9,408 nt of DNA, taken from contig JADFOP010000060.1 of assembly GCA_022562795.1 (NCBI GenBank), forward strand, positions 1 through 9,408, read 5' to 3'. Position numbers and translations under genes: made by a program. Positions 814-9,408 of the stretch are shown here, piece by piece; the first letter of the stretch is position 1, and each line of letters begins with the position of its first letter. Source of the DNA: Nitrospinota bacterium. GTDB lineage: Bacteria; JADFOP01. A model generated the notes under the pieces. That model saw only the letters and a list, made by a program, of their open reading frames with translations, did not search any database and had not been told where the DNA came from.

Positions 814-2721
814 TCACCGGAAGGCCGCAAGGCCGCCGTCGCGGCCCGCCACGTAGCAGGTTGAGCCCGCCACCGTGGGGCCGCCAAGACACTCAGCCTC
901 CAGGGGTGCGCCCCAGCGCTCGGCCCCGTCGTCGAGGCTGCGGGCGGTCATTAGGCCCTCGGCCCCTGCGACAAGCAAAAGCTCTCCGCTCAAGGCTGGC
1001 CCGCCCAGGTGCCGGCCCTTCGTGCGCACCCGCCATCGCTCCGCTCCGTCTTCGAGAGCGAGGGCGACGAGAGTCCCGTCGAAGGCCAGAACGTAAGCCG
1101 CGCCTTGTGCGAGCGCCGGGCCCGCGGCCACCCAAGCGGGAAGGCTCAACTGCCATCGCTCCCGTCCCGTGGCTAGCTCCAGGGCCGTGACCGTCCCGTC
1201 TGAGGAGCCGACGACTACGAGGCCGTCGGCCGACGCCGCCGCCCCGTCAATCCATCCGCCGGCCTGCCAGCGCCATCGCTCGCTCAAATCCTCTTGGTCC
1301 AGGGCGTAGAGGCAATGGTCGCGGGAGCCGACGACCACGAGGTCATCGACCAGCAGAGGTGATGAGGCCAAAGCTCCCCGGGCCGTAAAGGTCGCCGAGA
1401 CGGCTCCTCCGGCCCTCTTGAGGCGCACCAGCCGCCCGTCCAGCAAGGGGACGAAGAGGGCCTCTTGGGCGGCGGCGGGCGTGGCCACGACGGGAGCGCC
1501 GACCTCCGCCTCCCACTCGACAGAGCGGTCCATGAAATCAACGGCGTAGAGCCGGCCCCCGTAGCCCCCGACGTAGGCCTTCCCGTCGAGAACCGCAGCG
1601 GAAGCCGGGAGGCTTCCACCCAGAGGAAGCCTCGCGACCTCGCGGCCCCAGGTCTCCTCCAGCAGCACGAGCTCTCCTGTTGTGGTCCCAACCAGCACGA
1701 GGCCGTGGCATACTACCGGAGGGGCCACCACAGGGGAGCCAAGCTCAGCCCGCCAAGCCAGCTGCAGGGGGAGCAAAAGGGCGGGCGCCACGCTCCCTGT
1801 CCGCCTCGGCCCGCCTCGGCCCTGGGGCCAGTCGTAGGCCACCACAGTCGCCTCCTGGGACGGGGTCGCCTCGCCTAAGGCGTCGGCCCCTGAGCGATGA
1901 CCAGCTCGAAGGCGCGGGGCCTCAGCGAGGAGGCGCTCGATGCCTCGAAGCTCATCGGCCAGAGCCTCGGCCGAGGGCGTGCGGTGGGCCGGATCGCGCT
2001 CAAGGAGGCGGCGGAGGCACGAGACGAGCTCCGGCGCGTGATCGGCCCTGGCATTTCCTAAGGGCTCAGGGTCGCTCGACATGATGCGGCTTGCAAGCTC
2101 CCACTGACTTTCGGCCCGAAAGGGGGGCGACCCTTCCAGCATCTCGTAGAAAACCACCCCGAGGCTCCAGAGATCTGAGAGGAAAGTCGCCTGGCCTTTG
2201 AGGTGCTCGGGCGCCATATATGGAATGGTCCCGGCCTGGGTGCGGGCCTCCTCGGTCGGCTGGAGAATGCGCGCCAGCCCGAAATCGGCCACCTTTATGT
2301 CGCCCTCGGCCGAAAGGAGCAGGTTATCGGGCTTCAGGTCGCGGTGAATGACCCCGCGCCCGTGGGCGTACTTGAGGGCTTCGGCCGCCTGCCCCATCCA
2401 GGCCACGGCCTGGGCCGGCTCCACGGGGCCTTCCTTGAGGTGGCGGCGGAGAGACCCGCCGGCAGCATACTCCATTATGAGAAAGAAGGTGTCGTCGTCC
2501 TCATCCGTATCGTAGACCAGACAGATATTGGGGTGAATCAGCTGCGCCTGCGTTCGGGCCTCGGCTGCCAGCCGCTCGGTCGTCACCGGGCTCTGGTCGA
2601 AGGGCACCTTGAGGGCCCTCGGAGCCTTTAAGACCGGATGCCAGGCCAGGAGCACCTCGGCGAAGGCGCCCTGGCCGAGGCGACCGCGAATCTCGTACTT
2701 GCCTAAGGCGGTTCGGGTCAT
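814..2721 (-). CDS. Cytoplasmic Ser/Thr protein kinase with C-terminal PQQ-like beta-propeller
   Basis: This 635-residue protein should phosphorylate Ser/Thr residues on partner proteins. The Hanks-type kinase domain spans about 9-268. Visible are the glycine loop LGQGAFAEV (15-23), the ATP lysine K38 in RALKV, a candidate alpha-C glutamate E54, HRDLKPDN (126-133, catalytic D128), DFG (146-148), and activation-loop threonines T161 and T165 before MAPE (169-172). All catalytic residues are intact. After a linker (about 270-315), eight strand motifs of the type VVVGSxDGxLxAL, many followed by a GRERW-like turn, suggest an eight-bladed PQQ/WD-like propeller closed by the strand LAWRAEL. No transmembrane segment is visible, so unlike PknB-type receptors it should be soluble; Streptomyces AfsK is a known kinase with PQQ-type repeats. 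It is the last gene of the operon, 27 nt after the anti-sigma stop, with a poor ribosome site, so translation may depend on upstream genes. Kinase identity is near certain; its target is inference. Confidence 0.95.
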   Translation of the reverse strand: MTRTALGKYEIRGRLGQGAFAEVLLAWHPVLKAPRALKVPFDQSPVTTERLAAEARTQAQLIHPNICLVYDTDEDDDTFFLIMEYAAGGSLRRHLKEGPVEPAQAVAWMGQAAEALKYAHGRGVIHRDLKPDNLLLSAEGDIKVADFGLARILQPTEEARTQAGTIPYMAPEHLKGQATFLSDLWSLGVVFYEMLEGSPPFRAESQWELASRIMSSDPEPLGNARADHAPELVSCLRRLLERDPAHRTPSAEALADELRGIERLLAEAPRLRAGHRSGADALGEATPSQEATVVAYDWPQGRGGPRRTGSVAPALLLPLQLAWRAELGSPVVAPPVVCHGLVLVGTTTGELVLLEETWGREVARLPLGGSLPASAAVLDGKAYVGGYGGRLYAVDFMDRSVEWEAEVGAPVVATPAAAQEALFVPLLDGRLVRLKRAGGAVSATFTARGALASSPLLVDDLVVVGSRDHCLYALDQEDLSERWRWQAGGWIDGAAASADGLVVVGSSDGTVTALELATGRERWQLSLPAWVAAGPALAQGAAYVLAFDGTLVALALEDGAERWRVRTKGRHLGGPALSGELLLVAGAEGLMTARSLDDGAERWGAPLEAECLGGPTVAGSTCYVAGRDGGLAAFR

Positions 2722-2748
2722 GGGGTATCCGTAGGCGTAGAGAGGTGT

Positions 2749-3336
2749 TCAGGAGGTCGGCTCTCCCTCTGGAGGGGCTTCTTCATCCTCCTCGACCTCG
2801 GCTGCATCTCTCGGCAGCGCAGCCAGAGGCCAAGCCTCCGGCTCTCGGCTCAGGAGACGCTGGAGCCAGGCGGCCGCCTCACTCCCCTCCGGCGGAGGTT
2901 TCCGACCGAGGGCTTCCTCAGCGGCCCGCCTGAGCCGCTCGGCGAGACCCGTTTCGGCCAGGATCGACAGCCGCCCTCGGAGGGAAGCGGGCAGCTCCGC
3001 CCCCTCGGCCGGAGGGTCCCATTCGGCCTCGAAGGCCCTCACGGCCTCGATGAACTCGCGGCAGGCCGGGCACCGCTCGATATGCCGGGCCAGAGCCTTT
3101 CTTGGAGCCTCCTCGCCCTCCCCCGCCAGGTGCTCTGAGATGGCCTCCGCAGGAGGGCAGCTCGCCCCGCTGGCCGTCCAGAGCTCAACCAGCAGCTCTC
3201 TGGTCTCGCCAAGCTCATCGAGGCCTCGGCGACACTCTTCGCAGCCCGCCAGATGCGCCTCGACCCTCCTTCCGGCCTCGGCATCGAGCGCTCCCTCAAT
3301 GTAGGCGACAAGGTCGAGAGTTTCACAGGACGGCAT
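2749..3336 (-). CDS. Soluble anti-sigma factor with two zf-HC2-type zinc-finger modules
   Basis: This 195-residue protein begins four bases after the ECF sigma stop codon, with a strong GGGAGG site (3345-3350) inside the end of the sigma gene, so the two are probably translationally coupled. Residues 1-40 form a classic ZAS/zf-HC2 anti-sigma zinc finger: C4, then YIEGALDAEAGRRVEAHLAG leading to H28, C32 and C35. A second module follows, with C60, H85, C89 and C92 (HIERCPAC). Family members normally bind region 2/4 of the cognate ECF sigma factor and keep it from core polymerase. Most have a single finger followed by a membrane span; here there is no hydrophobic span, and the C-terminus (about 175-195) is acidic (EVEEDEEAPPEGEP). 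Release by membrane proteolysis is therefore unlikely. Release by redox, metal or phosphorylation is possible but is inference. Confidence 0.88.
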   Translation of the reverse strand: MPSCETLDLVAYIEGALDAEAGRRVEAHLAGCEECRRGLDELGETRELLVELWTASGASCPPAEAISEHLAGEGEEAPRKALARHIERCPACREFIEAVRAFEAEWDPPAEGAELPASLRGRLSILAETGLAERLRRAAEEALGRKPPPEGSEAAAWLQRLLSREPEAWPLAALPRDAAEVEEDEEAPPEGEPTS

Positions 3337-3340
3337 CGTG

Positions 3341-3949
3341 CTATCCTCCCAAGCGAGGCTCCAGGAGACCGGCCTTGAGCGCCGCCCGGCGGAAGTGCTC
3401 GAGGCAGCGCTTAATTTGAACCGAAATGGTGTTCAAGGGCCTCCCGAGCCGCTCGGCTATCTCCCGGTAGCTCTCCAGCAGCCCCAGCTTGTACTCCATG
3501 TAGGCCTGGATGACCCCCTTGCAATAGCCCGGCAGACCCTCCAGCAAGGGGCTCCAGCGGGCGAGGTCCCGCCCAGCCAGCACCTTGGACTCAACGGTGG
3601 GCCCGCGGTCGGGCCGGCCGGCCACGGGGTCGACCTCGGGCCTCTCCTCCGCCCCCGGCGGCCGCCCCCGGTGGCGAAGGCGCACCTCGGCGGCCCTGTG
3701 GTGGTCGTGAACCCGGTTGATGGTCGCGCGCTTGACGAAACTTCGGAACGCATCTGCCGAGCGCACCATCGCGAGACCTTTCTCCATTAGCTGAAGCAGG
3801 ACGGCCTGGGCGACATCCTCAGCCGACCCGCCGAGGCCCCATTGAGGCCATCGGGCAACGGAAACCACGTAGCCGTAGAGGTAGCCCCACGCCTCCTCAT
3901 CCCCCTGGCAGCATCGAAGGAAGAGCTCCCGGTCGGAGACCTGGTCCAC
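3341..3949 (-). CDS. ECF-type RNA polymerase sigma factor
   Basis: This 202-residue protein has the two-domain ECF layout. Region 2 covers about residues 8-85, including the region 2.2 core AEDVAQAVLLQLMEKG and the DNA-melting part FRSFVKRATINRVHDHHRA. A charged, proline-rich linker of about 45 residues follows. Region 4 (about 132-192) carries the helix-turn-helix LLESYREIAERLGRPLNTIS followed by VQIKRCLEHFRRA. It should direct core polymerase to a small set of promoters, probably including its own operon. The start is GTG at 3949, three bases beyond the TAG of the FHA gene, supported by a GGAGGG site (3956-3961) six bases upstream. Its likely inhibitor is the next gene. Sigma factors beside Ser/Thr kinases are an established theme: EcfP of Vibrio parahaemolyticus is activated by kinase PknT. 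Here both a kinase and a zinc-finger anti-sigma are present. I cannot assign an ECF group. Confidence 0.92.
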   Translation of the reverse strand: MDQVSDRELFLRCCQGDEEAWGYLYGYVVSVARWPQWGLGGSAEDVAQAVLLQLMEKGLAMVRSADAFRSFVKRATINRVHDHHRAAEVRLRHRGRPPGAEERPEVDPVAGRPDRGPTVESKVLAGRDLARWSPLLEGLPGYCKGVIQAYMEYKLGLLESYREIAERLGRPLNTISVQIKRCLEHFRRAALKAGLLEPRLGG

Positions 3950-3952
3950 CGC

Positions 3953-5287
3953 CTACCCTCCCCCGGCGATTAGGCTCGCCTGCCACGCGGCCTCCAATTT
4001 AGGGTACGGCCACCCGAGAGATTCTAGAGCCTCCTCCATCGAGGAGCCGCCGCCGAGCGCGTTCAAGATCGCCCTGAGCCCCTGCCAGCCGACGGCCTCC
4101 TCCAGAAAGGCCGCCACGCTGTAGGACTGAGCGTAGGCCAAATCAATGAGGGGCTTTTCCTCCAAGCGCCACAAAGGCCCCTCCAGGGCCTGCAGAGGAA
4201 GCAAAGCCTCCCGGCGGGAAGCGGCCTTCAGGCTCTCCACCGCCCGGCGGGGGAGATTCTGGGCCACGAGCTGAGCGATGCCTTCATCCAGCCAGGCAGG
4301 GCAGCGCCCACCGGAGGCGGCCTCGACTGCCACGTGCGCCACCTCGTGGGTGAGCAGCAAGACGAGGAAGGGCGGCTCGGGGAGCGCCCCCTCGCCGACG
4401 GCCACACGGACCGTCCCGTCGTAAACACCCGCCATCCAGGTGGCAAAAGCCTCCGTGGGGACGGGGCTCTCCCTCCTGAGCTCCTCCTCGGTCTGGTAGA
4501 CCTCCACAGCGACGCTTTCCGGCAGGGAGCCGACCGTCTCAAGGAGACGGCGGCGGGCCAGCGCGAGCGTCTTGGCGATGGTCTTAAGCAGCGACAGGTC
4601 GGCGCTCAGAGGGAAGCGGACGACCCAGCCGGGGCCTTCGACCGACACGCGCTCCCCCGACCCCAAAAGGACCTCCGTGGCCGCCCCGTCCTCAACCAGC
4701 AGCGTCTTGACCTTCCCGTAGACCCGCCACTTCTCACCAAGGCGCTTCAGGGCCGACGCAGCTTCGGAGTGCGCCTCGGCCCCCGCGGGAATCGCCCGGT
4801 AGGCGTCCTCGGCCCGCTCCCACCGACCGGCGGCCTCGAATAGGCGGCCCAGCGTGAGACGGCGGTCGTGATCCCCAGGCTCCGAGAGGAGGCCAATCTC
4901 GTAGGCCTGAACCGCCTCTGGAACGCGGCCGTCGGCGCGCAGCCGGTCGCCCTCGGCGAAGGCCGCCGCGGCAGGGCCCTGAGGGAGGGCATCGGCCGGG
5001 AGCGCGTGAACCGTCAGCGTCGTTCGGCCGATTCGAATCTCGTCCCCAGGTCGGAGTAGAGCCCGCTCGATGCGACGGCCGTTTACGAAGGTGCCGTTCG
5101 CGGCGCCCAGGTCCTCCAGAAGATAGCCCCCCTCCCTCTCGATAAGGCGTGCGTGATCCCTGGAGACCTCAGGCCCAGGCAGAACCAGGGAGGAGCCGGA
5201 CCGCCTGCCGATGGTCAGCTCCGGACCCCGGAGGGGCAAGGTGGAGCCCCCTGGGGTGTGGAGGAGAAGCATCATATCTTCGCTCAT
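3953..5287 (-). CDS. FHA domain-TPR-gluzincin (peptidase MA-like) fusion protein
   Basis: This 444-residue protein has three parts. Residues about 16-92 form an FHA domain, the phosphothreonine-binding fold, with its key residues intact: G27-R28, S42 and H45 in SRDHARL, and N64-G65-T66 with N69-G70 in ANGTFVNG. Residues about 105-185 look like two or three TPR-like helical hairpins (RADGRVPEAVQAYEIGL; LFEAAGRWERAEDAYRAI). The C-terminal half resembles peptidase MA-like zinc enzymes: HEVAH at 314-318 supplies two histidine ligands and the catalytic E315, and WLDEGIAQ supplies E335 as third ligand, 17 residues later. All metal ligands are present, so activity is plausible. No signal peptide or membrane span is seen, so it should be cytoplasmic. 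Its GAGGT ribosome site overlaps the stop codon of the gene upstream, 12 bases away, and it ends three bases before the sigma start. Docking to a phosphoprotein made by the operon's kinase is inference. Confidence 0.88.
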   Translation of the reverse strand: MSEDMMLLLHTPGGSTLPLRGPELTIGRRSGSSLVLPGPEVSRDHARLIEREGGYLLEDLGAANGTFVNGRRIERALLRPGDEIRIGRTTLTVHALPADALPQGPAAAAFAEGDRLRADGRVPEAVQAYEIGLLSEPGDHDRRLTLGRLFEAAGRWERAEDAYRAIPAGAEAHSEAASALKRLGEKWRVYGKVKTLLVEDGAATEVLLGSGERVSVEGPGWVVRFPLSADLSLLKTIAKTLALARRRLLETVGSLPESVAVEVYQTEEELRRESPVPTEAFATWMAGVYDGTVRVAVGEGALPEPPFLVLLLTHEVAHVAVEAASGGRCPAWLDEGIAQLVAQNLPRRAVESLKAASRREALLPLQALEGPLWRLEEKPLIDLAYAQSYSVAAFLEEAVGWQGLRAILNALGGGSSMEEALESLGWPYPKLEAAWQASLIAGGG

Positions 5288-5299
5288 CGCCCTGTTACC

Positions 5300-6271
5300 T
5301 CATCGGGCCGAGCGCCTGTATCCGGCCTCACGGGCCTCGGCCTCGTCGGCGAAGAGGACCCGGTTGGCCGAGCCGACCCGGTAGTAGAACCGCCCCCCGG
5401 GCAGGTGGTAGACCTTGCTCGCAAGGTTGCCGACGACGGGGCCGCCCCAGAGCCCCCTTCGGGCCCGGCGGGCCTCGGCCTCCAGGCGTCCAAAGGCCGC
5501 GCGGCGCGGGGCCCCGGCGGTGGCGAGATCGGCATGGACGGCGCCTTGCTCGATAAGCGAGGCGTTGACGTCCGTGCCGTCGGCCAGGGAGACGAAGGCG
5601 AGAAGCGCCCCATCGGCCAACTTCGGCTGAGGAGGATAGTCCAGGGCGACGGCCTTCCCGGCGACCAGCTCCGAGAGGGCACGGCGGGCCCGGCTGCCGT
5701 AAATCTCATCGCCCACCTTCGGGTCATTGTAGGCGGGAGCCCTAAGCCCCGCCATGCGGATGAGTTGGCCTGAGTTTAGACGAATGCGGTCCCCCGTTAA
5801 GATAGCGGCCACGACACCCGTTTCGGGGAGGCCCCCCTGGGCAGTCGCGGCAGGCATCTTGGCCGTATCCAGGGCCGCAGGCGCAGGGGATAACGACCCA
5901 AGCCCGAAAGTCCACCAGACGACGAGCCCCGCCGCAAGCAAGGCGAGGCCGGCGGCCGCCAACAAGCGGCCCCGGGGCGCGCTGAGAGGCGCCGACGCTC
6001 CCTCGGCGACCTCCAATACGCCGTCGAGACCCAGCAGGTCCCACAGGCGCGCGGGGGGGATGCGGGCCTGGAGAGCGGGCCCGGCGGGCTCGGCCCGAAC
6101 GACCACCGCCCCCCAATCCTCGAGAGCGCGCGCCACGGCGCCCATATCCTCGGCGGACTCGAGACGAAGGCTCACCTCCACCAGGTCGGCCGAAGGCCCC
6201 CACCGCCCCTCGGCCCCGTGTAGGGCCGCCAGCATCTGCTCGACGAGCCCCGGCGTCATGCTCGCCGTCAT
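5300..6271 (-). CDS. Single-TM protein with degenerate SNase-like domain and Ada-like C-terminal module
   Basis: This is the first gene of the operon (323 residues). Residues 30-90 form an alpha/beta region, ending ARIPPARLWDLLGLDGVLEV, that resembles a small ferredoxin-like or propeptide fold; I do not recognise it firmly. Residues 103-124 are one membrane span. Residues about 150-276 match the staphylococcal nuclease fold (TGDRIRL, IRMAGLRAP, LLAFVSLADGTDVNASLIEQG). Compared with nuclease A, D21 and R35 have equivalents (D161, R172), but D40, E43 and R87 appear as R177, A180 and A222, so it is probably not a nuclease. Residues 280-318 (GNLASKVYHLPGGRFYY, then AREAGYR) match the Ada-like zinc module often found after SNase domains, but the usual cysteines are G293 and S321. 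The ATG at 6271 follows a GAGGGAAAGGGG stretch. With its short N-terminal part probably cytoplasmic and the folded C-terminal part outside, it could be a sensor, but this is inference. Confidence 0.75.
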   Translation of the reverse strand: MTASMTPGLVEQMLAALHGAEGRWGPSADLVEVSLRLESAEDMGAVARALEDWGAVVVRAEPAGPALQARIPPARLWDLLGLDGVLEVAEGASAPLSAPRGRLLAAAGLALLAAGLVVWWTFGLGSLSPAPAALDTAKMPAATAQGGLPETGVVAAILTGDRIRLNSGQLIRMAGLRAPAYNDPKVGDEIYGSRARRALSELVAGKAVALDYPPQPKLADGALLAFVSLADGTDVNASLIEQGAVHADLATAGAPRRAAFGRLEAEARRARRGLWGGPVVGNLASKVYHLPGGRFYYRVGSANRVLFADEAEAREAGYRRSAR

Positions 6272-6359: not shown

Positions 6360-6388
6360 ATATTAACAGAACTGGGCCCCGGCGTCAC
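6360..6388 (-). promoter_or_regulatory. Possible weak sigma-70-type promoter for the sigma/kinase operon
   Basis: On the minus strand GTGACG (6388-6383) and TAATAT (6365-6360) are separated by exactly 17 bases, each matching four of six consensus positions. It lies about 90 bases upstream of the first operon ATG in the only AT-rich patch of this intergenic region. An ECF-type promoter recognised by the operon's own sigma factor is equally possible, but its motif is unknown, so this call is tentative. Confidence 0.3.
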
Positions 6389-7122: not shown

Positions 7123-8838
7123 ATGAAAAAAATGATGGATGAAACGGGAAAAATCGCTAATTTGAACCTCGTCGCACTGGCGGCAGCCATTGCTCTCGCT
7201 CTCGCCTTCGCCCCGGCGCTGGCCGCGACTATCGTCGTCCCCACCTCTTCGAATCCCGATATCCAGGACGGGATCAACGCGGCGAGCTCCGGCGACACGG
7301 TCCTGCTCAAAGCAAAGTGTAACAGTGCCATCAGTGCCCACTGCGGCTTCAACGGGCTCTACCACCAGGGAGTGGATATCGACAAGAAGCTCACCCTCAA
7401 CTGCAGCGGCGCTATCCTCGACGCCGACGTTCCGCTCGGCAAGAAGGGAGAAACCACTGACGGCGGCGCCACAACCGAATTTGTTGGCCCCATTCGGCTG
7501 GGAGGGGACGGGGTCGATATCCTGTCCGATGGGGACGGTACCACTATCGTCAACTGCACGATAAGGAACTTCAAGGATAACGGCATCGAAGTGAATGATG
7601 CGGACGGCGTCACCATCAGGAGAAACACCCTCATCAACACCGACGGTGATGGAGGACTGGATATAAACTCTTCGGACGATTACCTAGTCGAGCGCAACAC
7701 GTCCATCGAGAATAAAAAGGCAGGCTTCGAACTCGACGGCGACGACGGCATCATCAAGAACAACATCGCCAGGGGGAATGAAAAGGTTGGGTTCGAGGTT
7801 AACGGCGACCGGATCGAAATACTGCACAACAGAGCCTTTAGAAACAAGGACGAAGGGTTCAAGGTTACCGGCGACAGTGTCGGCAGTTTCACCATCATTA
7901 GCAACAGGGCGGAGACCAATAAGAAAGAAGGCTTCAAAATCAAAGATGCCGACGACAGCACCATCTCGAGGAATTTCGCCCGGGCCAATGAAAAGCCTGG
8001 GTTCAAAATCGAAGGCGACGGCGACGACATCACCATAGAGAGGAACGTGTCCCTTTTCAACCAGGATGACGGCTTCGATATCGAAGGCGACGGCCACATT
8101 GTCAACAGGAATGCCGCCATCGGGAATGGAGAATCAGGCTTCAAGATCAAAAGCTTTGACACTACGATAACGCGCAACAGGGCGTTTTTCAACAACAAAA
8201 AAGCGGGGTTTGAAATCGAATGCAAAGATGGTCCTCCCTGCGGCCCGATCACGCGCAACCGCTCCGTCGGCAACGTGAAAGCGGGCTTCGACCTGAAAAA
8301 ACAGAGCGAAACCACCGTCTCACACAATAAGGCCATAGAGAATGAAGAGGATGGCTTCAAAATTGACGATTCCAATACGACTACGTTCTACCACAACCTT
8401 GCCAGGGACAACGGCAATAGTGGTTTCGACATTAAAGACGGCGACGACAACACGTTCGATAGGAACAAGAGCATCGAGAACGACCGGGACGGCTTTAAGA
8501 TAAAAGATAGCGAATCAAATACGTTTATTAAGAACCTGGCCAAGAAAAACAGCGAGGATGGGTTTGACCTCGACGACACCGATGTCGACACAGTCACCAT
8601 GACCGGCAACAGGGCGATCGGCAACGCTAATACGGGCATCGAGAACGACGGCGGAGCTTTTACGACCCTTGAGGACAACACCATGACGGGTAACGGGCTT
8701 GACCTCGCCGGCAAGGGCGACGAAGATGGTGACGAGGCCATCACCTGCCCCGACTCTGCCGGCGCCGCGACTGACCTCGGCGGCAACGTCTTCGCCACCG
8801 GCGGGTTTGACTTCTGTACCCCGGGCCAAACGGATTAA
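7123..8838 (+). CDS. Secreted right-handed parallel beta-helix repeat protein
   Basis: This 571-residue protein starts at an ATG behind a good GGGAGG site (7109-7114). A signal peptide with a hydrophobic core at about 16-33 and predicted cleavage at ALA34-A35 indicates export. Residues 36-62 resemble the opening strand of NosD/pectate-lyase-type beta-helices (IQDGINAASSGDTVLL). From residue 154 to about 524 there are about 16 coils of 22-26 residues, most beginning GF(K/D/E)(I/L/V) and containing an R/H-N-x-A/S-x-x-N segment, the PbH1 pattern. The coils are very rich in Asp, Glu and Asn, which suggests bound Ca2+, though this is not shown. C66, C74, C94 and C145 are shared with the downstream paralogue and may form disulfides. 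No catalytic residues of polysaccharide lyases can be recognised, so carbohydrate binding or lysis, surface structure and adhesion all remain open. No anchor or sorting signal is seen at the C-terminus. Confidence 0.9.
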   Translation: MKKMMDETGKIANLNLVALAAAIALALAFAPALAATIVVPTSSNPDIQDGINAASSGDTVLLKAKCNSAISAHCGFNGLYHQGVDIDKKLTLNCSGAILDADVPLGKKGETTDGGATTEFVGPIRLGGDGVDILSDGDGTTIVNCTIRNFKDNGIEVNDADGVTIRRNTLINTDGDGGLDINSSDDYLVERNTSIENKKAGFELDGDDGIIKNNIARGNEKVGFEVNGDRIEILHNRAFRNKDEGFKVTGDSVGSFTIISNRAETNKKEGFKIKDADDSTISRNFARANEKPGFKIEGDGDDITIERNVSLFNQDDGFDIEGDGHIVNRNAAIGNGESGFKIKSFDTTITRNRAFFNNKKAGFEIECKDGPPCGPITRNRSVGNVKAGFDLKKQSETTVSHNKAIENEEDGFKIDDSNTTTFYHNLARDNGNSGFDIKDGDDNTFDRNKSIENDRDGFKIKDSESNTFIKNLAKKNSEDGFDLDDTDVDTVTMTGNRAIGNANTGIENDGGAFTTLEDNTMTGNGLDLAGKGDEDGDEAITCPDSAGAATDLGGNVFATGGFDFCTPGQTD

Positions 8839-8955: not shown

Positions 8956-9408
8956 ATGAGGGGTATGAAAGGAACAGGAATGATAACAAATGGTAGCCTC
9001 GTTACCCTGGCTTCGGCCCTGGTGCTCGCTCTGGCCGGTGGGCAGGCGCAGGCGGCGGTTCTCAAGGTGCCGGCCGATTTCGCCACCATCCAGGCCGCGG
9101 TGGACACGGCGGCATCCGGCGATACGGTGAAGTTGAAGAAAAAGTGCGTAGCGCCTAACACCACCTGTGGCCCCAATGGGGAGTACCAAGAGGTCGTGGA
9201 CATCGATAAGAAAATCACCCTCAACTGCAACGGCGCGGTCCTCGACGGCGCCGTTCAGGGCGACGCCAGCACAGCCACCCCCTCCGCTCATCTGGGAGGC
9301 CCCGGGATCAATATCATGTCCGATGGGGACGGGACCACGGTCGTCAACTGCACGGTGCAGAACTTTGAAGGTGAAGGCATCGAAGTGGATGATGCGGACG
9401 GCGTCACC
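8956..9408 (+). CDS. Second secreted beta-helix protein, paralogue of the upstream gene, cut by window edge
   Basis: The frame from the ATG at 8956 is open to the last base and gives 151 residues; the repeat domain continues outside. AGGAGG (8942-8947) lies eight bases upstream and supports this ATG over in-frame Met4 and Met9. A signal peptide ends at about AQA33-A34. The mature start VPADFATIQAAVDTAASGDT (38-57) is the typical NosD/pectate-lyase-like beta-helix opening. It aligns with the upstream gene along its length: SGDTV(L/K)LK, VDIDKK(L/I)TLNC, SDGDGTT(I/V)VNCT and GIEV(N/D)DADGVT are shared, as are four cysteines. The last 33 bases differ from 7582-7614 at one position, so the pair arose by duplication or is kept alike by gene conversion. 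Its function is unknown, as for its neighbour. Confidence 0.88.
   Translation, partial: MRGMKGTGMITNGSLVTLASALVLALAGGQAQAAVLKVPADFATIQAAVDTAASGDTVKLKKKCVAPNTTCGPNGEYQEVVDIDKKITLNCNGAVLDGAVQGDASTATPSAHLGGPGINIMSDGDGTTVVNCTVQNFEGEGIEVDDADGVT

Follow-up and report, generated by a model that had tools for sequence, protein, structure and literature searches.

A conserved operon in a Nitrospinota bacterium joins a Hanks-type kinase, an FHA domain fused to a putative metallopeptidase and an ECF sigma/anti-sigma pair: a candidate phosphorylation-gated switch

In Mycobacterium tuberculosis, the extracytoplasmic function (ECF) sigma factors SigE and SigH are held by the soluble zinc anti-sigma (ZAS) proteins RseA and RshA; they are acted on by a general kinase whose gene lies elsewhere, with ClpC1P2 serving as the protease. 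Phosphorylation of RseA and RshA by this kinase, PknB, releases SigE and SigH, following which RseA is degraded by ClpC1P2 (PMC8999054). A different form of control operates in the ECF43 group (Vibrio EcfP/PknT and Xanthomonas EcfK/PknS), in which the acidic motif of region sigma2.2 is replaced by a threonine-containing STTA or QTTA (PMC13147305, PMC8999054). Here we describe an operon on contig JADFOP010000060.1 of a Nitrospinota bacterium (genome G000, 2.15 Mb and 97% complete); the entire 9408-base contig (G000:C60) is the window analyzed. By its predicted parts, the operon resembles the M. tuberculosis systems in having an ECF sigma factor held by a soluble ZAS anti-sigma alongside a Hanks-type kinase; however, here a single operon encodes the kinase, a putative FHA-directed metallopeptidase and the anti-sigma, the last of these with two ZAS motifs. 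We propose that it might constitute a phosphorylation-gated ECF switch in which the kinase writes, the FHA domain reads and the peptidase removes the anti-sigma, a reading whose chances we consider evenly balanced. The five genes probably form a real signalling module, because its parts occur together again in a distant lineage.

The genes lie on the minus strand in the order pseudo-SNase membrane protein (SNL), FHA-TPR-Peptidase_MA_2 fusion, ECF sigma factor (SIG), anti-sigma (ASF) and kinase (KIN), with intergenic gaps of 12, 3, 4 and 27 bases. The order, gaps and open reading frame coordinates match a preliminary description of the locus exactly, and each of the domain identities it offered is backed by Pfam or NCBIfam. 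We compared G000 with one further genome in the genus (G001) and one more in the class (G002). In G001, the order from the FHA fusion through SIG and ASF to KIN is intact at 74-78% identity, and the SNL gene is present but interrupted by an integrative element; G002 has no match to SIG or KIN. All five genes are under purifying selection: the ratios taken from the dN and dS computed between the window and G001, a two-genome comparison, are 0.36 for SNL, 0.20 for the FHA fusion, 0.27 for SIG, 0.16 for ASF and 0.22 for KIN. The ancestor of the genus probably already had the five genes in this order.

Domain matches and a motif alignment resolve the fusion protein (3953..5287, minus strand) into an FHA domain (residues 25-87; 69.8 bits), a TPR region (about 110-185) and a Peptidase_MA_2 domain (312-440; 53.5 bits), with no signal peptide. 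The peptidase domain displays the HExxH signature (HEVAH, 314-318) with a downstream glutamate, E335, as the third ligand typical of gluzincins, and is a putative metallopeptidase. The FHA domain possesses the canonical residues of phosphothreonine readers (G27/R28, S42/R43/H45 and N64/G65), and phosphothreonine binding is predicted for it. Its closest solved structures are GarA, OdhI, EmbR and M. tuberculosis FHA proteins. GarA, OdhI and EmbR-type proteins act as kinase-bound regulators, and those of the EmbR/PknH and GarA/OdhI systems read Hanks-kinase phosphothreonine; here, in contrast, the FHA domain is fused to TPRs and an HExxH peptidase. These relatives favor an alternative in which the kinase autophosphorylates and is bound by the FHA domain in the style of EmbR or GarA, the TPR-peptidase is an adaptor or acts on some other substrate, and phosphorylation or zinc loss is by itself enough to release ASF, as in SigH/RshA. 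The fact that PknB phosphorylation frees the M. tuberculosis anti-sigmas without a dedicated FHA protease also fits it. However, across the two lineages with such operons the HExxH..WxxE motif is intact in 43 of 43 peptidases, even at loci where the FHA domain is degenerate, which argues that catalysis matters at the sigma locus; we rate this alternative as unlikely, albeit the most serious of those considered.

KIN (814..2721, minus strand) is, by domain matches, a Hanks-type Ser/Thr kinase (residues 9-255; Pkinase, 183.5 bits) coupled to a PQQ/BamB-like beta-propeller (PQQ_2, 137.5 bits), with K38, HRD (126-128) and DFG (146-148) all intact and no transmembrane segment. It accounts for the one Pkinase match detected in G000, a genome with two FHA domains, the stronger of which is in this operon; a search of the same genome for PP2C_2 found none. 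Thus, if the operon FHA domain reads a Hanks-kinase phosphothreonine, KIN is the only candidate writer detected in G000. The second FHA domain of the genome is at the C-terminus of a guanylate/adenylate cyclase (L166:3668-4720 in G000:C8; L098:6283-7329 in G001), beside a GAF-SpoIIE-like phosphatase, read from the sequence, and an msrB-like gene.

SIG (3341..3949, minus strand, with a GTG start) comprises sigma2 and sigma4 regions alone and matches the sigma70-ECF model TIGR02937 with 46.6 bits against a cut-off of 42.9. It is a divergent member of the family because its Pfam matches to r2 (18.5 bits) and r4_2 (19.9 bits) are both under their cut-offs. Its best match outside the genus, in G071, was set aside as having no kinase, FHA or peptidase nearby. 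The linkage of its gene to that of a Hanks-type kinase is shared with ECF43, and raises the alternative of direct sigma phosphorylation in the style of EcfP and EcfK, with the kinase adding charge to the ECF sigma and ASF serving as a second, separate brake. Thr118 in the linker between sigma2 and sigma4 (GPTVES), conserved in both genomes, is in keeping with this, as the linker region is phosphorylated in EcfK and SigH (PMC13147305). However, region 2.2 retains its acidic residues (SAED in the window and AAED in G001), so that phosphorylation would have no absent charge to make up for; a double zf-HC2 anti-sigma gene lies directly downstream of SIG; and the FHA-peptidase is left unexplained. 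ECF43 sigma factors, in contrast, have neither an anti-sigma nor the acidic sigma2.2 motif, and the kinase here is soluble. EcfP-type control of SIG thus appears unlikely because of the acidic residues remaining in region 2.2, and we regard direct sigma phosphorylation as a whole as quite improbable. Of the earlier suggestion that the kinase phosphorylates the sigma factor, region 2.2 is an unlikely target while phosphorylation at linker Thr118 is possible.

ASF (2749..3336, minus strand) shows two zf-HC2 matches (43.5 bits), and its zinc ligands C4-H28-C32-C35 and C60-H85-C89-C92 are complete in both genomes. It has an acidic C-terminal tail and no hydrophobic segment and, with its Hx3Cx2C motifs, is of the soluble ZAS type; among PDB sequences it matches RslA best (3hug_B, E 3e-5). 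Given the gene order and the ZAS motifs, ASF is the likely holder of SIG. Like RsrA, ChrR and RslA, it has Cys-His-Cys-Cys ZAS ligands; it is distinguished from them by the tandem ZAS arrangement, the acidic tail and the lack of a cupin or transmembrane domain. The complete ligands at both motifs in the two genomes, together with a match to the NCBIfam RsrA model (37.7 bits), are what a redox or zinc switch would call for: the two sites would sense thiol stress as in RsrA or ChrR, with the kinase and the FHA-peptidase serving another pathway and sharing only the transcript. The recurrence of the kinase-FHA-ECF-peptidase set in a second lineage, with no zinc anti-sigma found at the locus, makes this improbable in our estimate. 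Three threonines of ASF are conserved, Thr6, Thr54 and Thr194, of which Thr6 adjoins the zinc ligand C4. A single-chain AlphaFold model of ASF from a two-sequence alignment was too poor for use (pLDDT 48).

In the phosphorylation-gated reading that we favor, the soluble double-ZAS ASF would hold SIG in the resting state, as its family and gene order imply. KIN would be activated by a signal, perhaps a ligand of its cytosolic propeller or input via the membrane protein SNL, and would then phosphorylate a threonine either on a partner or on ASF, where Thr6 beside C4 is the best conserved candidate. Docking of the FHA domain on this phosphothreonine would bring the HExxH peptidase to ASF, which might be cleaved or pulled off by the peptidase protein, freeing SIG. 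Each step of phosphorylation, binding, cleavage and sensing in this scheme is one that we infer. The link between kinase, FHA, peptidase and sigma is supported by the conservation in the genus, the lone Hanks-type kinase of G000 and the recurrence in the second lineage. The short intergenic gaps, the clade shared by the peptidases of both lineages and their invariant catalytic motif also speak for the scheme. The dedicated write/read/remove version is the simplest reading, and its published precedent is PknB with RseA and RshA.

The second lineage was reached by a search with the FHA-peptidase protein, which led to a class of 82 genomes represented by G318. The G318 operon codes for an ECF sigma, a protein that carries one or two FHA domains and is helical at its N-terminus, a TPR-Peptidase_MA_2 protein without a signal peptide, a CvpA protein and a TPR protein. 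The peptidase is present in 77 of the 82 genomes, and the linked sigma/FHA/peptidase triple was found at no fewer than 32 loci, with several others ending within the short stretch examined. G318 has a single Hanks-type kinase, about 64 kb from the operon, and the operon contains both FHA domains of this genome; in each of 12 more genomes from the class there is one strong kinase of 650-700 residues, accompanied in some by weaker ones. The kinase is linked to the operon in two members: G387, with the order Hanks-type kinase, TPR-peptidase, ECF sigma and helical-FHA protein, and G394, with the order kinase, ECF sigma, helical-FHA protein and a SpoIIE-FHA-TPR-Peptidase_MA_2 fusion. Therefore, the architecture in the window is not a one-off. 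A survey of 386 genomes, with about four candidates scored in each, gave no complete FHA-TPR-MA protein outside the genus, a negative set aside in light of the G394 fusion. The latter belongs to a dense phospho-signalling cluster (L211; G394:C525:15000-24500) with two Hanks-type kinases, PP2C-like fragments, two FHA proteins, the ECF sigma and the fusion itself. In a tree of 73 Peptidase_MA_2 domains, the window and G001 are sister to the G318 class with support of 99/88, apart from 60 others, although the tree has long branches and its domain borders come from a profile built on the window, G001 and G318.

The parallel operons (L131, L209 and L211) thus resemble ours in the ECF sigma, the FHA domain, the cytosolic TPR-Peptidase_MA_2 protein of a single clade and, in two members, the linked kinase, but differ in their CvpA and TPR genes. 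Several of their features weigh against the phosphorylation-gated reading. Outside family f41, all 17 parallel loci that yielded the protein have a canonical FHA core, but in f41 the core is degenerate at 22 of 22 sampled loci, where sigma and peptidase stay; hence, the phospho-reading step is dispensable in f41. Neither a zinc anti-sigma nor a pseudo-SNase was seen at the loci of the parallel class. The co-occurrence of families proposed earlier as a check holds for the four core families in the genus and for kinase, FHA, ECF and peptidase in the second lineage. Neither hhalign nor comparisons with PDB and Pfam revealed homology between the parallel helical-FHA protein and anti-sigmas, and SIG shares only about 20% identity with its counterparts in the second lineage. 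To these we may add that the ZAS zinc sites of ASF could be redox-responsive without any part played by a kinase.

At the f41 loci (L142-L162 and L164), where the FHA half is eroded, both the ECF sigma and the peptidase motif persist, as does the helical N-terminus. This retention suggests that the helical N-terminus is the sigma-facing part of the parallel FHA protein. Its identity as an anti-sigma, considered on grounds of pattern and gene position, received 0.2% in hhalign against ASF and no support from PDB and Pfam, and is left as an inference.

The preliminary description knew of no system with both kinase and anti-sigma control plus an FHA-linked peptidase. The first two are known together from SigH/RshA, SigE/RseA and PknB of M. 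tuberculosis (PMC8999054); the linkage to an FHA-metallopeptidase, in contrast, stands as the new element, kinase control of ECF sigma factors and zinc anti-sigmas being known separately and, in Mycobacterium, jointly. Full-text literature searches on ECF sigma factors with anti-sigmas and FHA proteins, or with Hanks-type kinases and anti-sigmas, which left most subscription papers uncovered, turned up no account of a module like this one. That an operon-encoded FHA-guided metallopeptidase destroys a phosphorylated anti-sigma, as a self-contained ECF-release pathway present in two distant lineages, is a bolder proposal that we advance tentatively and would not call probable. If true, it would bring Hanks-type kinases, FHA readers and ECF sigma factors together with regulated anti-sigma proteolysis in a single cassette, constitute a natural phosphothreonine-triggered protease switch, suggest what class of substrates cytosolic Peptidase_MA_2 proteins are likely to act on and offer a lead for kinase-adjacent ECF groups beyond ECF43 that retain the acidic sigma2.2 motif.

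SNL (5300..6271, minus strand), a predicted pseudo-nuclease by domain matches and residue alignment, has a cytosolic N-terminal domain of about 98 residues, one transmembrane helix (about 103-121), a degenerate SNase domain (171-275; 43.3 bits in Pfam/NCBIfam) and a C-terminal sunset domain (281-321; NF051437, 36.9 bits against a cut-off of 27). No other protein of the operon has a clear transmembrane segment. Of the active-SNase residues R35, E43 and R87, the equivalents of E43 and R87 are missing in both the window and G001, bearing out its earlier labeling as a pseudoenzyme. In G001, residues 2-291 are on contig C782 and 285-323 on C144, beside a tyrosine-type integrase. The element interrupts the sunset-domain codons, with a 13-bp core AGGTGTACCACCT at both junctions; the counterpart within the sunset codons of the window (5403..5416, minus strand) reads AGGTCTACCACCT. 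The insertion has thus cut off the SNL C-terminus in one member of the genus. SNL was seen in this genus only and is broken in one of its two members, because of which its role, possibly that of carrying an envelope signal, is the weakest part of the model. Of the kinase/FHA/anti-sigma interpretation put forward previously, the conserved operon and the functional link of KIN, FHA-peptidase, SIG and ASF are supported, whereas SNL is not tied to this core outside the genus.

The G001 element (L019:7876-9237 and about 7980-8015; L098 about 1640) encodes its own apparently intact SNase (L019:13186-13842), which retains the E43 and R87 equivalents, and contigs C685 and C288 carry similar SNases. 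In L055 and L071, the proximity of SNase genes to Peptidase_MA genes looks incidental, as the SNases are active-looking and their neighbors unrelated. A subtilase-propeptide-like beta-alpha-beta-beta-alpha fold was considered for the N-terminal domain of SNL; Pfam gave nothing and it is not claimed. The AlphaFold model of SNL, from a two-sequence alignment, was likewise too poor for use (pLDDT 38).

Upstream of the operon, a by-eye alignment with the orthologous G001 region reveals a predicted promoter-like pair kept in both genomes, with a candidate -35 (GTGACG, 6383..6388, minus strand) separated by 17 bp from a candidate -10 (TAATAT, 6360..6365, minus strand). A divergent tRNA-Cys upstream is also kept, the G001 copy being recognized by reading the sequence; the remaining flanks are not alike. 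Downstream, 64 bases past KIN, is a minus-strand gene (3-749) for an HTTM-domain (vitamin K-dependent carboxylase-like) membrane protein, which was ruled out as a member of the conserved unit as the next gene in G001 is a convergent msrA. Two neighboring plus-strand genes (7123-8838 and 8956-9408) encode exported NosD/beta-helix repeat proteins whose N-termini are related; of these genes, the second continues past the contig end.

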